Assembly (NCBI GenBank): GCA_905339165.1
Contig: CAJPFH010000031.1
Coordinates: forward strand, 1 to 64,000
Source: Flavobacteriales bacterium
Lineage (GTDB): Bacteria; Bacteroidota; Bacteroidia; Flavobacteriales_E; Vicingaceae
Direction of reading: 5' to 3'
DNA length: 64,000 nt
Part shown: positions 7,205 to 15,148 of the stretch, one piece after another
How positions within the stretch are numbered: the first letter of the stretch is position 1
Layout: each line of letters begins with the position of its first letter
Translations under genes and position numbers: made by a program
The notes under the pieces: generated by a model
What the model saw: the letters and a program-made list of their open reading frames with translations, nothing else
What the model was told of the DNA's origin: nothing
Databases searched by the model: none

Positions 7205-7531
7205 TTGACAAAAACAGTACAAACCGGAATTTCATTTCTACTATTGGTAAGTGTGTTTTCATTGATGCACTTTTCTGTTTATAGTAAAACGAAACTTTCT
7301 GCTGCCGAAAATACATGTACAACGGAATTTGTTTCTAAATTTTTAAAAAAAGAAACCCTAAAAGACTGCAACTTTTTTTCCCTAAAAAAGGTTTACATCG
7401 AAAATATCATATCCCACCAATATTTAGATTTTTTTATACATTCTTATTTAGCCACCTATATTGCTTTTTCCAGAAATATAGAAAAGCCAAAATTGTGTAT
7501 TCTTTACAAGCAGTATAAAGTTTACTGTTAA
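7205..7531 (+). CDS. Hypothetical small exported protein upstream of dabA
   Basis: The frame encodes 108 residues from a TTG start (AAAGGA lies two bases upstream) or about 88 from the ATG at 7265. The TTG form has a plausible signal sequence (residues ~8-27, ISFLLLVSVFSLMHFSVYS). The rest contains several Cys (CTTEF, DCNFF, KLCILY, final C) and no recognised domain. It lies 90 bases before dabA on the same strand and could share its transcript. Nothing beyond length, position and the hydrophobic start supports it, so it may be a chance frame in a leader region. Confidence 0.35.
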   Translation: MTKTVQTGISFLLLVSVFSLMHFSVYSKTKLSAAENTCTTEFVSKFLKKETLKDCNFFSLKKVYIENIISHQYLDFFIHSYLATYIAFSRNIEKPKLCILYKQYKVYC

Positions 7532-7621
7532 GACGTCTCATTCCCCTCTTTTTACCCATTAAAGTGCAGCATGTACTTAATAGGGAAATCTCACTAAACT
7601 TATATTTTGTTTTCAATTAGT

Positions 7622-10120
7622 ATGTTGAAAGAAAATTTGCAAGAAAAAATAACTTGTTTTGATTTGGAAAAGACGCTTCATGAGTTGAAGCACTATCTTC
7701 CATCTCAGGCTCCACTAAAAGATTTTGTGCATCACAATACATTACATGCTTTTCAGCATGAGTTTTTTCATAAAGGATTACATAAAGCTTCTAAATTATT
7801 TGGATATCAAACCTATTTAACATTAGAGGAATACAGAAATCTTTTTATTCAGAAAAAAATAGATGAGAGAGTGTTGGATAGAATTTTATTGAGTAGAAAA
7901 GGAGAAAATAAAGAAGAGTGGAAAGAAAAGGGATTAAATAAAAGATATGATAGCCTTATTATACAACGAGTTGGAAGGTTTAGAGAACTATGGAAAAAAA
8001 AGTACAAAATAAATTTAGACAAATATGTTCATCCTACTTTATTTCGTTTGCTAGGCTCATACTTAGATCAAGGAATTAGTATTGATGGCTTTCCGATAAA
8101 TAAGCAAGGATTTTTAAACTCGGTGTTAGAGTTGCACAATTCAAGTATTATAAAGCTATTTACCAGCCAACGAGTAAACCAACTGATAAAAGATAAAGCT
8201 GTTTCGTTACAGGAGTTATTAAAAATGGTAGTAGGCAAGGAAGAATTCTTCGAATATTATTTATTTGATCAGCAGTTTGCCCACCCAGGATGGTCTGGTA
8301 TGGCAGCCGTTTTAAATGATAATGAATATTTATTACTTGATAAAAGAAACATTACTTTAAAAGATTTTATTACTATAGAATTGCTTTTGGAAATAGATGT
8401 GTTAGACAATAAATTTGGCGAAACATGGAAACCATTAGCTCTAAGTGTTGAAGAGGAGAACCTGAATTTATTTTCAAAAATAGAGTATGATGAGTTGTAC
8501 GATATTTTAAGCATTTGGCAGGAAGCCTACGAGTGGAGTTTTTTCGATTTTGTATTGAAAGGTTTACAACTTAAACAGGCAATCCAAAAATTCAACGCCT
8601 CATTTCAGGCCGTTTTTTGCATAGATGACCGCGAGTGTTCTTTTAGGCGATACCTAGAAAAAAATGACTCCCATTGCGAAACATTCAGCACGGCAGGCTT
8701 CTTTAATGTAGCTTTCTACTTTCAACCAGAACATGGGAAGTTTTATACCAAGCTTTGTCCGGCACCACAGTTCCCTAGTTATTTAATTAAAGAATACGAG
8801 GCTTCTAAGCGACATAGTAAAGATATACACTTCAATAAAAGTACGCATGGATTTCTAGGAGGATTTATTTTTTCTCCCACCATGGGTTTTTGGTCTATGT
8901 TTAAACTAGCTAAAAGTATTTTGTTTCCCACTCAAACAGAGGCTTTGATTTCTTCTTTTAAACATATGGATAGAAATGGTAAGCTCAGTATTGAAGCGAA
9001 TGCATTATGGAAAGAAAATAATTTACAATTAGGGTTTACCAAAGAGGAGATGGCTGATAAGGTAGAAGGTTTACTGAAAGGAATTGGCTTAGTCAATGAT
9101 TTTGCCCCTCTTATTTACATTATTGGTCATGGTGCAAGTAGCGTAAACAACACGCATTATGCAGGGTACGACTGTGGAGCTTGCTGCGGAAGAGCGGGTT
9201 CTGTAAATGCCAGAGTGGCCGCCTTTATGGCAAATCATAAAGAGGTGAGAGATTTACTAAAGTTGAGAGGAATAGAAATTCCCACAAGTACACAGTTTAT
9301 AGGTGGTTTGCATGATACCACTCGCGATGAAATTGAATTTTACGATGAAGAAGAATTAAATGAAGAAAATAAAAACTTACACTCTAAAAACAAAATAACA
9401 TTTGAAAAATCACTCTCGGAAAATGCCAAAGAACGAGCCAGAAGATTTTTACTGATAAAAAACAAAACCAATACAAAAAAAGTGCACGAAGAAGTAAAAT
9501 TGCGATCTCTTTCGCTCTTTGAACCTAGGCCAGAATGGAATCATGCCACTAACTCGCTGTGCATAATAGGCAAAAGAGAAAATTGTAAACATTTGTTTTT
9601 AGACAGACGAGCATTTCTAAACTCGTACGATTACCGTATAGATAAAGACGGAATGATTTTACTTGGTATTTTAAATGCCGTAGCACCGGTTTGTGGTGGA
9701 ATCAATTTAGAGTATTATTTTTCTAGAGTTGATAACTACCGCTTGGGAGCTGGCACCAAACTTCCCCATAATGTAATGGGATTATTAGGTGTAGCTAATG
9801 GTATGGATGGAGACTTACGTACCGGTCTTCCTAAGCAAATGATTAATATACACGACCCGCTTCGATTATTAATTACCGTAGAACATTTTCCACAGGAAGT
9901 ATTGCGCATTATAAAAATGAACCCGGCCACCTATGAGTGGTTTAAAAACGAATGGATTTTCTTGGTTGTTATACACCCTGATAATAGGTCATTATTTGTT
10001 TTTAAAAATGAGGAATTCGAACCTTATTTACCCCTTGCCGCTGAAATTAAAAAAGCAGAAAATATTCAAAAAACGGTTGAAGGAAGTTCAGAAAATTTAC
10101 CCGTCTATCTGATAAATTAA
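7622..10120 (+). CDS. dabA: DabA, inorganic-carbon accumulation complex catalytic subunit (DUF2309/UPF0753)
   Basis: An 832-residue protein from the ATG at 7622 (a TTG at 7607 would add five residues). It has the DUF2309 hallmarks throughout: LKDFVHHNTLHAF near the N-terminus, FCIDDRECSFRRYLE, GHGASSVNNTHYAGYDCGAC and VMGLLGVANGM. The beta-carbonic-anhydrase-like zinc site known for DabA is present as Cys338, Asp340, His508 and Cys523 (numbered from the TTG), with the 15-residue His-Cys spacing of characterised DabA. DabA hydrates CO2 to bicarbonate on the cytoplasmic side, made unidirectional by coupling to DabB. The gene is four bases from dabB. In heterotrophs the complex feeds carboxylases at low CO2. 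Confidence is high from family length, motifs and linkage. Confidence 0.93.
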   Translation: MLKENLQEKITCFDLEKTLHELKHYLPSQAPLKDFVHHNTLHAFQHEFFHKGLHKASKLFGYQTYLTLEEYRNLFIQKKIDERVLDRILLSRKGENKEEWKEKGLNKRYDSLIIQRVGRFRELWKKKYKINLDKYVHPTLFRLLGSYLDQGISIDGFPINKQGFLNSVLELHNSSIIKLFTSQRVNQLIKDKAVSLQELLKMVVGKEEFFEYYLFDQQFAHPGWSGMAAVLNDNEYLLLDKRNITLKDFITIELLLEIDVLDNKFGETWKPLALSVEEENLNLFSKIEYDELYDILSIWQEAYEWSFFDFVLKGLQLKQAIQKFNASFQAVFCIDDRECSFRRYLEKNDSHCETFSTAGFFNVAFYFQPEHGKFYTKLCPAPQFPSYLIKEYEASKRHSKDIHFNKSTHGFLGGFIFSPTMGFWSMFKLAKSILFPTQTEALISSFKHMDRNGKLSIEANALWKENNLQLGFTKEEMADKVEGLLKGIGLVNDFAPLIYIIGHGASSVNNTHYAGYDCGACCGRAGSVNARVAAFMANHKEVRDLLKLRGIEIPTSTQFIGGLHDTTRDEIEFYDEEELNEENKNLHSKNKITFEKSLSENAKERARRFLLIKNKTNTKKVHEEVKLRSLSLFEPRPEWNHATNSLCIIGKRENCKHLFLDRRAFLNSYDYRIDKDGMILLGILNAVAPVCGGINLEYYFSRVDNYRLGAGTKLPHNVMGLLGVANGMDGDLRTGLPKQMINIHDPLRLLITVEHFPQEVLRIIKMNPATYEWFKNEWIFLVVIHPDNRSLFVFKNEEFEPYLPLAAEIKKAENIQKTVEGSSENLPVYLIN

Positions 10121-10124
10121 GACT

Positions 10125-12002
10125 ATGGAAACCAATTATGTTTTATTAAGTTTTGTTATTGTACCACTACTTGGTTTTTTACTAAGCCTTATTTTCTCAA
10201 GTAAGAATGAATTTGCTTTATCTCGCATTGCTATTTATACCACATTTTTTCAGTTTATAATGGTGCTTGGGTTTATACTTTATTGGATTACATTGGGTGC
10301 TCCTTATATCAACATAAAAGAAACCGTTCTTTTTAAAAATAACGAGTACGAATTTTATATAGATTTCTTTTTTGATAAAATAACGGCCGTATACCTTTTT
10401 ACCGGAAGTTTTGTTACACTCCTTATTACCCGTTATAGCCGTTATTATATGCACATAGAAGATGGCTATAAACGGTTTTTTAATACTATTCTTTTTTTCT
10501 ACCTGGGGTATAACTGGACCGTTATTTCTGGAAATTTTGAAACCCTCTTTATTGGTTGGGAAATATTAGGCATATCTTCTTTTTTACTTATTGCCTTTTA
10601 CAGAGAACGGTATTTGCCTGTAAGAAATGCGGTAAAAGTTTTTTCTATTTACCGCATTGGCGATATAGGTTTACTGGCTGCCATGTGGGCAAGCCATCAT
10701 TTATGGCACGAGAATATTACCTTTCTGAAATTAAGTAATTACCATTTAGTACATGAACATTTAATGAGGTATAGTGATATTGGCTTATTTATCGGCCTAT
10801 CAATCTTAACGGCCGCAGTAGCTAAATCGGCACAGTTTCCTTATTCGTCTTGGTTACCAAGGGCAATGGAAGGGCCTACTCCATCGAGTGCCATTTTCTA
10901 CGGCTCGCTTTCCGTACATTTTGGAGTTTTCATTTTACTGCGAACCTTTCCTTTTTGGGAGCAGCAATTCATGGTACGAATCATTATTGGTTTAACCGGA
11001 TTAATAACAGCTATTATTTCTTTTTTTATTACTCGTGTTCAGTTTACTATTAAAACACAAATAGCCTATGCCTCTATTACGCAAATAGGTTTAATGTTTA
11101 TTGAAGTGGCTTTAGGTTGGCATGCCATTGCACTCATCCATTTTGCTGGTAACGCTTTTTTAAGAACCTATCAGTTACTGGTTTCTCCTTCGGTGGTAAG
11201 TTACCTTATCCGCGATCAGTTTTATCATTTTGTTCCTGTTTCTAAAATAGGAAACAATGGAATTAAAAACAAGTTTAGGTATACTATCTATACGCTTTCC
11301 CTTAAAGAATGGTATATGGATTATTTTATGAGTAACGTGTTTTTTAAATCACTGAAAGGGGTAGGTAAGTATTTAGATTTTTTAACTCCTAAAAACTTGT
11401 TGTTGTATTTTATTCCGCTATACACCATTGGGGTTTATTTTTACTTAAACGAACCTTCATTACCTTATTTTTTAAAAGAATATCTACCTGAATTCATTGC
11501 TTTTTCTGGATTGTTAATGGTTTTGAAAGCATTTTCTGAACGAAACTTTCCGCGTTTAGCTTGGCTTTTGGTTCTATTTAATCATTATTGTGTGGCATTG
11601 GCTGTGTCGTTTAACGAAAAATTCGAGTTACAGGAAACGCTCTTATATCTTTCAGGAGTGAGTGTTTCTGGATTCATTGGCTTTTTAGTGATACACGCTA
11701 TTCGAAAGAAAGAACCTAAACAATCTGATTTGAATATGTATTATGGGTTTGTTCAGAAATACCCCAAACAGGCTTTAGTCGTATTGCTTTGTTCTTTGGG
11801 TTTAATGGGATTTCCTATAACCCCCTCTTTTATTGGCGAAGATTTAATCTTTAGTCATATACAGGAGCATCAGTATTTTTTAGGCCTATTTACCGCTTTA
11901 AGCTTTGTAATGGGCGGAATTGCCATTATTCGAATATATGCCCGATTATTTTTGGGTCCTTATTGTAAGCCCACTTCCTCTAATCCTTTAAAATCATCTT
12001 AA
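10125..12002 (+). CDS. dabB: DabB, proton/cation-conducting membrane subunit (NuoL/MrpA-like)
   Basis: A 625-residue polytopic protein of the Proton_antipo_M family with well over a dozen hydrophobic segments. GWEILGISSFLLI matches the NuoL motif with the conserved Glu of the fifth helix, and AKSAQFPYSSWLPRAMEGPTP (residues ~227-247) is the family signature with its conserved Lys. It sits immediately after dabA, which distinguishes DabB from complex I NuoL; no other nuo or mrp genes are nearby. It is thought to let a cation flow down its gradient to drive CO2 hydration by DabA. The stop codon abuts the start of the next gene (TAAATG), implying translational coupling. Confidence 0.92.
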   Translation: METNYVLLSFVIVPLLGFLLSLIFSSKNEFALSRIAIYTTFFQFIMVLGFILYWITLGAPYINIKETVLFKNNEYEFYIDFFFDKITAVYLFTGSFVTLLITRYSRYYMHIEDGYKRFFNTILFFYLGYNWTVISGNFETLFIGWEILGISSFLLIAFYRERYLPVRNAVKVFSIYRIGDIGLLAAMWASHHLWHENITFLKLSNYHLVHEHLMRYSDIGLFIGLSILTAAVAKSAQFPYSSWLPRAMEGPTPSSAIFYGSLSVHFGVFILLRTFPFWEQQFMVRIIIGLTGLITAIISFFITRVQFTIKTQIAYASITQIGLMFIEVALGWHAIALIHFAGNAFLRTYQLLVSPSVVSYLIRDQFYHFVPVSKIGNNGIKNKFRYTIYTLSLKEWYMDYFMSNVFFKSLKGVGKYLDFLTPKNLLLYFIPLYTIGVYFYLNEPSLPYFLKEYLPEFIAFSGLLMVLKAFSERNFPRLAWLLVLFNHYCVALAVSFNEKFELQETLLYLSGVSVSGFIGFLVIHAIRKKEPKQSDLNMYYGFVQKYPKQALVVLLCSLGLMGFPITPSFIGEDLIFSHIQEHQYFLGLFTALSFVMGGIAIIRIYARLFLGPYCKPTSSNPLKSS

Positions 12003-12668
12003 ATGCTTAGTAATTATAAAAAACATTTAAGTTATATATATCCAATTCGGCATATTAAACTGAAAGGAGAATTTCATGAAGTGCTTGAAATTGTATGGGA
12101 AGACGGAAGAATGGTTTTAAACTCCAATTATGCAAATTATTCCTATGGAAGTTTGCACCAAGTATTCTTAAATGCATTTAAGCAATTTAAATTTTGCCCA
12201 AATTCGAAAGAAGATATTCTCATTCTTGGATTTGGAGCCGGATCCGTTTTTAAAATATTGAGACAAGATTATTCTTTTCAGGGAAAAATCATTGGAGTGG
12301 AAAAAGATAGCAAGATTATTTCGTTAGCAAGAGAATATTTTCAAATACCTGAAAACAACCCCTATTTTGAATTATTACATCAAGACGCATCCTTATATGT
12401 CAAATCTTGTAAAGAAAAATTTAATACCATCGTAGTAGACATATTTGTTGAACTTAATGTTCCCGATTTATTTCTGAAATCCGATTTTATGTTAGAACTA
12501 AAAAAAATATTAAAAAAAAACGGATGTATCTTTTTTAATATTATTCAAACAACGGCAACCCCACTAAATACAGTTAAAAAATCTATAGAAATAAGCAATT
12601 TATCATATACCTATTTTGAGCAAAAGATTTACAACACCAACAATTTTATTTTGAAAATCATAAATTAA
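12003..12668 (+). CDS. Spermidine-synthase-like class I methyltransferase-fold protein
   Basis: A 221-residue protein with a Rossmann fold of the spermine/spermidine synthase type: ILILGFGAGSVFKIL (nucleotide-binding glycine loop), IIGVEKDSKIISLAREYF (acidic residue after the second strand), LLHQDASLYV and FNTIVVDIF. True spermidine synthases have an N-terminal beta-barrel and the G-G-G-D-G loop; here the loop is G-F-G-A-G and the N-terminus is short, so polyamine synthesis is not supported. It begins directly at the dabB stop codon and ends seven bases before the SulP gene, so it belongs to the carbon operon. Its substrate and its reason for being there are unknown. Confidence 0.75.
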   Translation: MLSNYKKHLSYIYPIRHIKLKGEFHEVLEIVWEDGRMVLNSNYANYSYGSLHQVFLNAFKQFKFCPNSKEDILILGFGAGSVFKILRQDYSFQGKIIGVEKDSKIISLAREYFQIPENNPYFELLHQDASLYVKSCKEKFNTIVVDIFVELNVPDLFLKSDFMLELKKILKKNGCIFFNIIQTTATPLNTVKKSIEISNLSYTYFEQKIYNTNNFILKIIN

Positions 12669-12675
12669 CTAAACC

Positions 12676-14034
12676 ATGAAAAAAACATTTATCTCAGATT
12701 TATTAGCGGGCTTAACCGTAAGTTTTGCCGCTTTGTCATTAGGTGCCGCTTTTGGTATCATGTCTGGTAGAGGTGCCTTTGCAGGTATGCTCGGAGCAGC
12801 TATCATTCCCATTATTACATCACTTTTTGGAGGAACCAGATTGCAGGCTTCTGGGCCCACAGCCCCTATGACGGCCGTAACCGCTCTATTAGTAGCCAAT
12901 GCGTATGATAGTTTTGGAGGAGATAAACATCTAGCCGATGAGTTTATTACTTTAGTATTGCTTTTGGCCGGTGTTTTTATTATTCTTAGCGGTATATTTA
13001 AATTAGGTAAATACATACAACTGGTTCCGCAGGTTGTGGTACTAGGTTTTATGAACGGAATAGGCGTACTTATTTGGATTGATCAGCTAAAAAAACTTTT
13101 TGGATTAAACGGAATAAAGCCTTTAGAAGGCAATATAGTTATAAATATTGCCATTGCGTTTGGCACACTCGGGTTAATTTATCTAATACCATATGCATTA
13201 AAAAAATTAAACATATCAGCAAACATCAGGCGGTTCGTGCCTTCCATATTTGTAACCATAATTTTAGTTACAACATTATCTACTTTTCTTCAATTAAATA
13301 TCGAACACGTTAGCTTAGGTGAAAGTTATAATTCTTTTAGAGAATACATAAAAGTGGTATACTATGATTTACCTGTAGATAGTGCTATTTTCACTTCTGA
13401 ACATCTGTTTTTAGCTTTCCCTCTTGCCCTGCAACTATGCCTTTTGGCCTATTTAGATTCTTTGCTTACCAGTTTGGTAATAGATAAAATGACTAAAGAA
13501 AAAACGAAACCCAACAAAGAATTAATTGCTCAAGGTATTGCAAACACCCTTACTGGATTATTACAAGGAATACCCGGTGCACAAGCTACCATACGCTCTG
13601 TGTTGCTTCTAAAAGAAGGAGCCCAAACTCGTTTAGCAGGTGTATTTGTGGGCATATTTGCTTTGCTTGGATTTATTGTTTTTGGCAAACTCATTACTCT
13701 AATTACTTCTGCTGTATTTGTGGGTGTACTCTTAAAAGCCGGATTAGATGTGTTCGATAGAGATTTTGCTATAGCCTATGTAAAGAATAAGTGGATGACA
13801 AAACGAAAAAGAAATATTCAATTAATGTTTGTCGCTTACACAACCATCATTACCGTTTTGTTCGATTTGAATGTGGCCGTAATTTCCGGAACAATTTTCT
13901 TTTACTTAGGTAAAAAAATCTTTACTATTGCAGATGCAGAAGATGATTATTCCGAAGTACATGGTGAAGAATTACATGGTCAAAGTTTGGATACTGTAAA
14001 CGTAAAAATAAATAATAATGATACTTCACATTGA
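12676..14034 (+). CDS. SulP-family inorganic anion transporter without STAS domain
   Basis: A 452-residue, roughly 12-14-span protein of the SLC26/SulP family: early FAALSLGAAFGIMSG, then GGTRLQASGPTAPMTAV (the substrate-site beta-strand/helix region) and IANTLTGLLQGIPGAQATIRS later. Usual family members carry a ~100-residue cytosolic STAS domain; this one ends with a short acidic, polar tail, so STAS is missing. SulP proteins carry sulfate, bicarbonate or dicarboxylates; BicA of cyanobacteria is the bicarbonate example. Its place behind dabAB makes bicarbonate the attractive substrate (inference). It overlaps the next gene by 17 bases. Confidence 0.88.
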   Translation: MKKTFISDLLAGLTVSFAALSLGAAFGIMSGRGAFAGMLGAAIIPIITSLFGGTRLQASGPTAPMTAVTALLVANAYDSFGGDKHLADEFITLVLLLAGVFIILSGIFKLGKYIQLVPQVVVLGFMNGIGVLIWIDQLKKLFGLNGIKPLEGNIVINIAIAFGTLGLIYLIPYALKKLNISANIRRFVPSIFVTIILVTTLSTFLQLNIEHVSLGESYNSFREYIKVVYYDLPVDSAIFTSEHLFLAFPLALQLCLLAYLDSLLTSLVIDKMTKEKTKPNKELIAQGIANTLTGLLQGIPGAQATIRSVLLLKEGAQTRLAGVFVGIFALLGFIVFGKLITLITSAVFVGVLLKAGLDVFDRDFAIAYVKNKWMTKRKRNIQLMFVAYTTIITVLFDLNVAVISGTIFFYLGKKIFTIADAEDDYSEVHGEELHGQSLDTVNVKINNNDTSH

Positions 14035-14278
14035 GGTAAAACCAAATGCCAAACAAAATGAAATATTTTATTTAGGTGAAAATGCTTTAAAATTAAAAAT
14101 TAAAGCCCCGGCCACAGAAGGAAAAGCAAACCAAGCAATTGTTGAATTTTTATGCAAGGTGTTTAACACTTCAAAGTCTAAAATAGATATACTAAAAGGA
14201 ACTACTTCAAAGTTTAAGAAAATTCAGGTAGATTTGAGAGAAGCACACATTAAAGAAGTTTTAGAAAAATATAAATAA
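14018..14278 (+). CDS. DUF167 (YggU-like) family protein
   Basis: An 86-residue protein with the DUF167 pattern: HIEVKPNAKQNEI, then LKIKAPATEGKANQAIVEFL, then ILKGTTSKFKKIQVD. This is the full usual length of the family. Its biochemical role is not established. The start lies 17 bases inside the end of the SulP gene and its stop directly abuts the following ATG, so it is translationally coupled within the same transcript. Confidence 0.88.
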   Translation: MILHIEVKPNAKQNEIFYLGENALKLKIKAPATEGKANQAIVEFLCKVFNTSKSKIDILKGTTSKFKKIQVDLREAHIKEVLEKYK

Positions 14279-14656
14279 ATGGAAACCCTTTTTATACTTT
14301 ATGTAAAAGATCAAAATTCCAGTAGCCTCATGTATGAAAAGCTGTTGAGAATAAAGCCTCATTTGCATGTTCCGGGTATGACAGAGTTTATGCTAAATGA
14401 GAAAACAAAATTAGGTTTGATGCCGGAATCAGGAATCGCAAAAATTTTATCAAATAAAACCAAACATCCTGCTGACGGCAATGGAATACCAAGAGCTGAA
14501 GTGTATTTGTATGTAAAGGATATTCAAGAATATTATGAAAGAGCTACTGAGTTAAAACTTACGGAAGTAAGTGGAGTTGAAAAAAGAAGTTGGGGTGATG
14601 TTGCCTGTTACTTTGCCGACCCGGACGGACACATCATTACTTTTGCCTCCAAGTGA
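14279..14656 (+). CDS. VOC-superfamily (glyoxalase/bleomycin-resistance-like) protein
   Basis: A 125-residue protein of one VOC unit: ETLFILYVKDQNSSSLMYEK at the start, then EVYLYVKDIQEYYERA, and DVACYFADPDGHIITFA, the closing motif of glyoxalase-fold proteins with Asp-Pro-Asp-Gly-His. The canonical metal ligands are only partly identifiable. Enzymes of this fold act in isomerisation, epimerisation or antibiotic binding, so no reaction can be assigned. It is the last gene of the dabA-led run; the next gene converges from the other strand. Confidence 0.82.
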   Translation: METLFILYVKDQNSSSLMYEKLLRIKPHLHVPGMTEFMLNEKTKLGLMPESGIAKILSNKTKHPADGNGIPRAEVYLYVKDIQEYYERATELKLTEVSGVEKRSWGDVACYFADPDGHIITFASK

Positions 14657-14662
14657 AATAAA

Positions 14663-15148
14663 TTATTCGGTTTTATATACCACTTTTTTGCCTTCGTTAT
14701 TTATGTTAAAAATAAGTTTGGTGTAGCAATCTACAGGAATGTCTTTTTTTACGGTGGCAGGTATCCAGCCTGTCATTCCCTCAAGCATATTCTCTATTTT
14801 AATACCTATTTCAGTTTTTTCTTTGCTATCTTGAGCCCCTTTGCTTATTTCTTTAACACTAACCACCTCGCCTTTGCAATTAATAAGCACAACCATGTTG
14901 TATCTATAAGTTTGTTTACTTAGGTTAAATGCATGTAAATCTAAATTTAGGTCAATGTAAGTTTGTAAACTATCTTTTCCTTTGGGCCATAGAGGCAGTG
15001 TTTTAGGATTTTTGGTGTCAGATTTTGCGGCATTTTTTACTGCGGTTTCATCAAGCGAATACAAATCATTTTCGTTACACACTTTTTTGTTTTGTGCGTT
15101 TCCCCACAAAGAAAATGTAAGGAGTATAAAGATAAATAATTTGTTCAT
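14663..15148 (-). CDS. Secreted protein with TonB-C-like region
   Basis: The start is taken at the ATG at 15148, which gives a clean signal peptide (MNKLFIFILLTFSLWGNAQ); an in-frame start further upstream would put 12 extra residues before it. The mature part (~140 residues) has NCKGEVVSVKEISKG followed by GWIPATVKKDIPVD and TKLIFNI, the spacing of a TonB C-terminal domain (new strand after G-x-V, W-x-P-A, then hydrophobic strand). It has no proline-rich linker or standard TonB anchor. Similarity to TonB is from memory and moderate; it may be a periplasmic TonB-fold protein of unknown partner. It converges on the VOC gene with six bases between. Confidence 0.6.
   Translation of the reverse strand: MNKLFIFILLTFSLWGNAQNKKVCNENDLYSLDETAVKNAAKSDTKNPKTLPLWPKGKDSLQTYIDLNLDLHAFNLSKQTYRYNMVVLINCKGEVVSVKEISKGAQDSKEKTEIGIKIENMLEGMTGWIPATVKKDIPVDCYTKLIFNINNEGKKVVYKTE

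Follow-up and report, generated by a model that had tools for sequence, protein, structure and literature searches.

Vectorial, ion-gradient-driven carbonic anhydrases of the DabAB family convert CO2 into cytoplasmic bicarbonate, whereas transporters of the SulP family are membrane carriers in which a C-terminal STAS domain is usual, but not universal. Many heterotrophs possess DAB complexes, and a conserved pairing with a SulP bears on the use they are put to there. The active site of the DAB2 complex, as seen by cryo-EM, comprises Cys351, Asp353, Arg355, His524 and Cys539, of which three bind zinc (Cys2His) while Asp and Arg form a dyad (PMC13144422). In BicA, the HCO3-/Na+ site is formed by T69, D258, T262, G300, A301 and T302, and the STAS domain is required for both transport and dimerisation (PMC13249358). 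The dabAB-SulP pairing itself is not new, as it was noted in 2017, before the function of DAB was known: according to the COGNAT paper, pairs in which the COG3002 gene comes before the NuoL-like one often have a COG0659 transporter in their vicinity (PMC5700660). The stretch of 64,000 nucleotides analysed here (the window), from a Flavobacteriales bacterium, holds a conserved unit of this known kind, with its gene content, intact active sites, recurrent pairing and a distinct clade of SulPs with a BicA-type pocket; the role of the SulP in it is predicted.

The gene run and its neighbours

Six genes, from dabA to a VOC gene, form a tightly spaced run on the + strand of the window, according to their ORF coordinates. 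The first, dabA (7622..10120, 832 aa; PF10070, 703.7 bits, E 4e-211), codes for the cytoplasmic zinc subunit of the DAB complex and starts at the ATG at 7622, with an alternative open TTG at 7607. After a gap of 4 nt it is followed by dabB (10125..12002, 625 aa; PF00361 Proton_antipo_M, E 6e-39), for a NuoL/Mrp-like membrane subunit, then, with a gap of 0, by a spermidine-synthase-like gene (12003..12668, 221 aa; PF01564 Spermine_synth, E 3e-9) and, after 7 nt, by the SulP gene (12676..14034, 452 aa; PF00916 Sulfate_transp, E 2e-53). A DUF167 (YggU) gene (14018..14278; PF02594, E 6e-23) overlaps the latter by 17 nt, and the last gene is VOC/glyoxalase-like (14279..14656; PF12681, E 1e-8), on whose end the gene at 14663 converges. 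The gaps of 4, 0 and 7 and the overlap of 17 described in the earlier note were thus reproduced base for base. The source assembly is a draft (3.16 Mb in 136 contigs), which lends some ground to the idea that dabAB and SulP are neighbours by coincidence or through an error of assembly, but this is hardly credible: the complete run lies inside one contig, and the same order is found in other families and in a sister genome of the genus, which refutes the idea for the window.

That sister genome (G396) keeps the run minus the spermidine-synthase-like gene. For this ORF, which the earlier note had labelled methyltransferase-like, spermidine-synthase-like is the better label given its Spermine_synth match; against the NCBIfam polyamine aminopropyltransferase model it reaches 64 bits, far below the cut-off of that model. 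Another genome (G424) has a frameshifted remnant of it after dabB. Its candidacy as a functional part was dropped, as it is missing in the former genome and broken in the latter beside a broken dabA; it is an optional passenger and not integral to the unit. The interrupted dabA of the latter genome (L114, 5260-10191) may belong to a decaying dab operon or reflect a draft error. DUF167 also follows a SulP of the window type in another family (G500; L223, 10898-11152), and a VOC gene beside a dab operon has so far been found only within the genus of the window (L113, 13508-13885). Searches for signals gave little: the Bacteroidota promoter pattern has 6 matches vs 6.5 expected, with none upstream of the operon, the counts of sigma-70-like and terminator-like elements are at shuffle level, and a plasmid search returned no place at >=60% identity.

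Regarding the enzyme itself, C333, D335, R337, H503 and C518 of DabA are invariant in an alignment of 16 relatives and align with C351, D353, R355, H524 and C539 of H. neapolitanus DabA2. The locus has two marks of a DAB/DAC system, namely a PF10070 DabA with the Cys2His ligands and the Asp-Arg dyad, and an adjacent NuoL/Mrp-like DabB. The statement of the earlier note that four zinc ligands are kept holds in so far as all the active-site residues are retained, but the number is slightly off, the ligands being three and the rest the dyad. In related loci dabB lies downstream of dabA, while a second type of DAB in Bacteroidota has the order dabB-dabA, with no SulP in the short flanks examined. 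Two records whose names lie outside the phylum, Azotobacter chroococcum (L194) and a MAG labelled Planctomycetota (L184), also contain dabAB resembling those of Bacteroidota, suggesting either transfer or an error of naming or binning.

A SulP without STAS domain

The transporter of the run belongs to the SulP/SLC26 family by its Sulfate_transp domain and SLC26-type fold (Pfam, AlphaFold, Foldseek). As the earlier note had proposed, it has no STAS domain: Pfam gave no STAS match, and 51 residues are left after its transmembrane domain, where the Bacteroidota SulPs set against it have 110-181; residues 423-452 have a pLDDT below 50 in the AlphaFold model. All nine members of its clade have 28-51 residues after the membrane domain, too short for STAS.

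At the positions of the BicA site all nine have T, D, T, Q, A and T, so that five of the six residues are kept and G300 is replaced by Q; the motifs GPT[AG]PMT, LDSLLT and PGAQATIRS, which hold the equivalents of BicA T69, D258, T262, A301 and T302, are present in 9/9. D258 and T302 correspond to D261 and T305 of the window SulP. In most of the SulPs that usually accompany dabAB the corresponding motifs are GPAAG, LESLL and MISEVARSS, or near variants (T69 to A, D258 to E), and those proteins retain 0-1 BicA-site residues, at most T262. The pocket of the window SulP thus resembles that of the Na+-coupled BicA and not those of SULTR4;1 or SLC26Dg and, judged by five of the six residues, is a putative BicA-type Na+/HCO3- pocket. 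The possibility of a SulP belonging with sulfate carriers, which the earlier note had kept in mind, was not borne out, the pocket being unlike that of the sulfate reference.

The comparison with profile models and structures points in the same direction. Among the proteins scanned, the NCBIfam BicA model ranks first, ahead of those for sulfate permease and DauA, only for the window-type and BicA-like clades, whereas the dab- and carbonic-anhydrase-linked SulPs scanned score it below those two. The window SulP obtains 197.5 bits against the BicA model (NF050096), which does not reach the cut-off of 880, and the BicA-like proteins of Bacteroidota, with 435-480 bits, are likewise below it. BicA is also the best PDB match by sequence (6KI1, E 2e-41) and, for an AlphaFold model with a mean pLDDT of 83.7, the first in Foldseek (E 1.9e-19, TM 0.73), with SLC26Dg close behind. 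In a careful SulP tree, from which SULTR4;1 was omitted as a long branch, the window SulP leans to the BicA side with a support of 70/82, but AU tests did not reject the rival placements (p 0.30-0.33), and the tree was set aside as a means of placing the SulP. Of the grouping with BicA that the earlier note had suggested checking, the leaning stands and a firm placement does not.

Recurrence of the pairing in Bacteroidota

The adjacency was surveyed in 93 dabA-dabB loci drawn by DabA similarity, a set that is not random and comes nearly entirely from Bacteroidota. A SulP lies within the same same-strand run in 62 of the 93 and within about five genes in 10 further loci; the remaining 21 have no SulP, and in 7 of these 21 the run touches a contig or locus edge. 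Because genomes carry only a handful of SulP genes, this is far beyond chance, and the survey that the earlier note had called for shows a recurrent arrangement which is not unique to the window genome. At one locus (L123:2562-10870) dabAB has a SulP on either side, and in the downstream SulP a beta-carbonic anhydrase is part of the same protein.

The usual dab-linked SulP has ~530 or ~730 aa and 24-29% identity to the window SulP, and shares a clade with the carbonic-anhydrase-linked SulPs (tree support 100/100). One of the ~730-aa proteins that was scanned (L127:3350-5542) has STAS and roughly 200 C-terminal residues with no Pfam domain. The window-type SulP, searched in 396 genomes of the phylum, 100 relatives and 395 genomes of the class (overlapping sets), forms a STAS-less clade of 9 members in those sets, 6 of which lie in dab operons of three families. 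Within the family of the window, it is separated from dabB by one gene in the window genome (G000), stands directly after dabB in the sister genome and in G430 follows a partial dabB with which the contig begins; it is also directly after dabB in G569 and G544, both of family f65, and in G500, of family f81. As for the other members, that of G517 (f65) is at a contig end and is followed by a DUF2490 gene, an order also found in dab operons, that of G049 precedes a beta-CA, and that of G524 follows formate-dehydrogenase-like subunits, which are of the molybdopterin and Nuo51 types (L225:9412-15082). The window-type partner is found at two places of the DabA tree, with two changes, which could mean that the SulP partner was exchanged or gained more than once, or else transfer or loss. 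The window SulP is, in short, a distinct STAS-less variant in a known dabAB-SulP unit.

It could be argued that the SulP is unconnected with bicarbonate, for instance a sulfate permease, and merely a hitch-hiking neighbour in the run, given that the family is broad, its tree placement is not firm and seemingly unrelated genes (DUF167, VOC and spermidine-synthase-like) are also part of the run. This is improbable, as the adjacency recurs in three families with the window-type SulP and throughout the phylum with the usual one, and both types stand in tandem in one run after dabB in G430. The presence of at least two SulP types in the same place suggests that, outside autotrophs, the hydration of CO2 and the direct transport of anions cooperate.

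Candidate leader ORFs upstream of dab operons

Upstream of the run, 90 nt before dabA, there is a candidate leader ORF on the + strand (7205..7531, 108 aa, with a TTG start after AAAGGA), with a hydrophobic segment at its N-terminus. It has no Pfam or NCBIfam matches, and is kept in the sister genome (84% aa; dN 0.086/dS 0.206). Upstream of 76 of 94 operons there is a small ORF, 80-165 aa long, whose product starts with a hydrophobic segment. Such small secreted ORFs stand before dabA, or before a SulP that opens its operon, as in the window and at L001:979-1395, and were recorded at 92 places. When 57 non-redundant dabA leaders are aligned at their stop codons, their last 15 residues contain 13.9 bits, vs a mean of 1.4 and a maximum of 3.9 in 500 random sets of other proteins, and positions -20 to -34 of the leaders hold 2.3 bits. 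With a motif score trained without similar sequences, 72% of leaders vs 1.4% of other small ORFs score above 5; L138 is one of those with a strong motif, and the copy in the window, with 3.3, is a weak fit. Many leaders before SulP-carbonic anhydrase pairs, including that of the other locus of the window genome (L001), have PPP near the C-terminus, with just a few residues behind it. A similar C-terminal motif was seen before a 422-aa gene, outer-membrane-efflux-like by eye (L180:16485), which hints at a wider class of leaders.

Arrest peptides have been sought as small unannotated upstream ORFs with an N-terminal signal or TM segment, a conserved C-terminus and a spacer over 30 aa, and stop-anchored leader classes have been described ahead of sec genes in Bacteroidota (PMC10987492). 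The leaders described here have all of these properties, the window copy being weak at the C-terminal motif, and are as a class candidate translation-arrest leaders, to which the window copy fits weakly. RNA structure after the leader was also considered, with a mean z of -1.8 for leaders vs -1.3 for controls (p 3e-4), but the value of the window copy is -0.7 and no claim is made. It can be put forward, tentatively, that apparently undescribed secreted leaders control the inorganic-carbon operons of Bacteroidota (dabAB-SulP and SulP-carbonic anhydrase), their last ~14 stop-anchored residues stalling the ribosome, and that in some lineages a STAS-less Na+/bicarbonate importer has taken the place of the usual SulP. 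If the leader ORFs did stall ribosomes, they would constitute an apparently undescribed regulatory layer for carbon supply in a large phylum.

Proposed function

The earlier note had seen no RuBisCO in view, and this extends to the entire assembly, from which PEP carboxylase and the PYC_OADA domain are also absent. The genome has two biotin-carboxylase-domain genes, two SulPs and one beta-CA, the latter adjoining the other SulP. Light-driven anaplerosis was considered and set aside: the search for a rhodopsin gave no match, but neither did its positive control.

The run is probably an operon for the supply of inorganic carbon by two complementary routes, in which DAB would hydrate CO2 and the SulP would import bicarbonate. 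DabAB would convert CO2 into bicarbonate in the cytoplasm, driven by an ion gradient, and the STAS-less SulP would bring in bicarbonate directly, probably with Na+, in the manner of BicA. The bicarbonate would then, as its likely use, supply biotin-dependent carboxylases and further carboxylation reactions of an ordinary kind, and not a RuBisCO-based CO2 fixation. Here we infer the substrate, Na+ coupling and direction of the SulP, as well as the co-transcription and the physiological use of the run. A two-route unit was already the reading of the earlier note, and it fits the recurrent adjacency, the BicA-type pocket and the carbonic anhydrase or formate dehydrogenase genes that adjoin other members of the clade, while the placement with BicA is not firm, substrate and direction are predictions and the adjacency was already known. 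Against bicarbonate import stand the need of BicA for its STAS domain (PMC13249358), which the window clade lacks, the Q in place of G300, the difficulty of inferring SulP substrates from sequence, and the other SulP that the genome already has beside its sole beta-CA.

A rather unlikely alternative is anion exchange, in which the SulP would release the bicarbonate made by DAB in exchange for sulfate, formate or an organic acid, so that the pair would power anion uptake or adjust pH instead of serving carboxylation. Exchangers as well as carriers of sulfate do occur among SLC26/SulP proteins, a member of the clade has formate-dehydrogenase-like subunits as neighbours (L225) and the genome has just two SulPs; nonetheless, the pocket matches the Na+-coupled BicA at five of six positions, and not SULTR4;1 or SLC26Dg, and the recurrent neighbours act on CO2/HCO3-. 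Lacking STAS by nature but having a pocket of the BicA type, the window SulP is a test case for the role of that domain.

Comparison with known systems

The DAB2 complex of Halothiobacillus neapolitanus shares with the window locus the DabA family and active site and a NuoL-like membrane subunit (PMC13144422), but it serves a RuBisCO-based autotroph, whereas the window genome has no RuBisCO and carries a SulP within the same run. MpsAB of Staphylococcus aureus (PMC6689103, PMC8567241) also joins a DabA-family protein to a NuoL-like subunit, in a heterotrophic host, the residue comparison made here being with DAB2 only. For the transporter, the cyanobacterial SulP bicarbonate transporter BicA (6KI1) is the closest in sequence and fold, with 29% identity over the structural alignment and T69, D258, T262, A301 and T302 common to both; unlike it, the window SulP has no STAS domain, has Q at position 300 and is not placed within the BicA clade. 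Bacteroidota SulPs that are joined with a carbonic anhydrase, by linkage or by fusion (L001, L121, L123), likewise pair a SulP with an enzyme of CO2/HCO3-, but belong to a different clade and have an A/E-type pocket. Finally, the ‘clade C’ of COGNAT 2017, in which COG3002-COG1009 (ybcC/nuoL-like, now dabA-dabB) appears with COG0659, has the same order with dabA upstream and a SulP nearby; in the cited parts of that paper the operons are given by COG, with the SulP types not separated, and mention is made of NuoM (COG1008), which is absent from the window run (PMC5700660).
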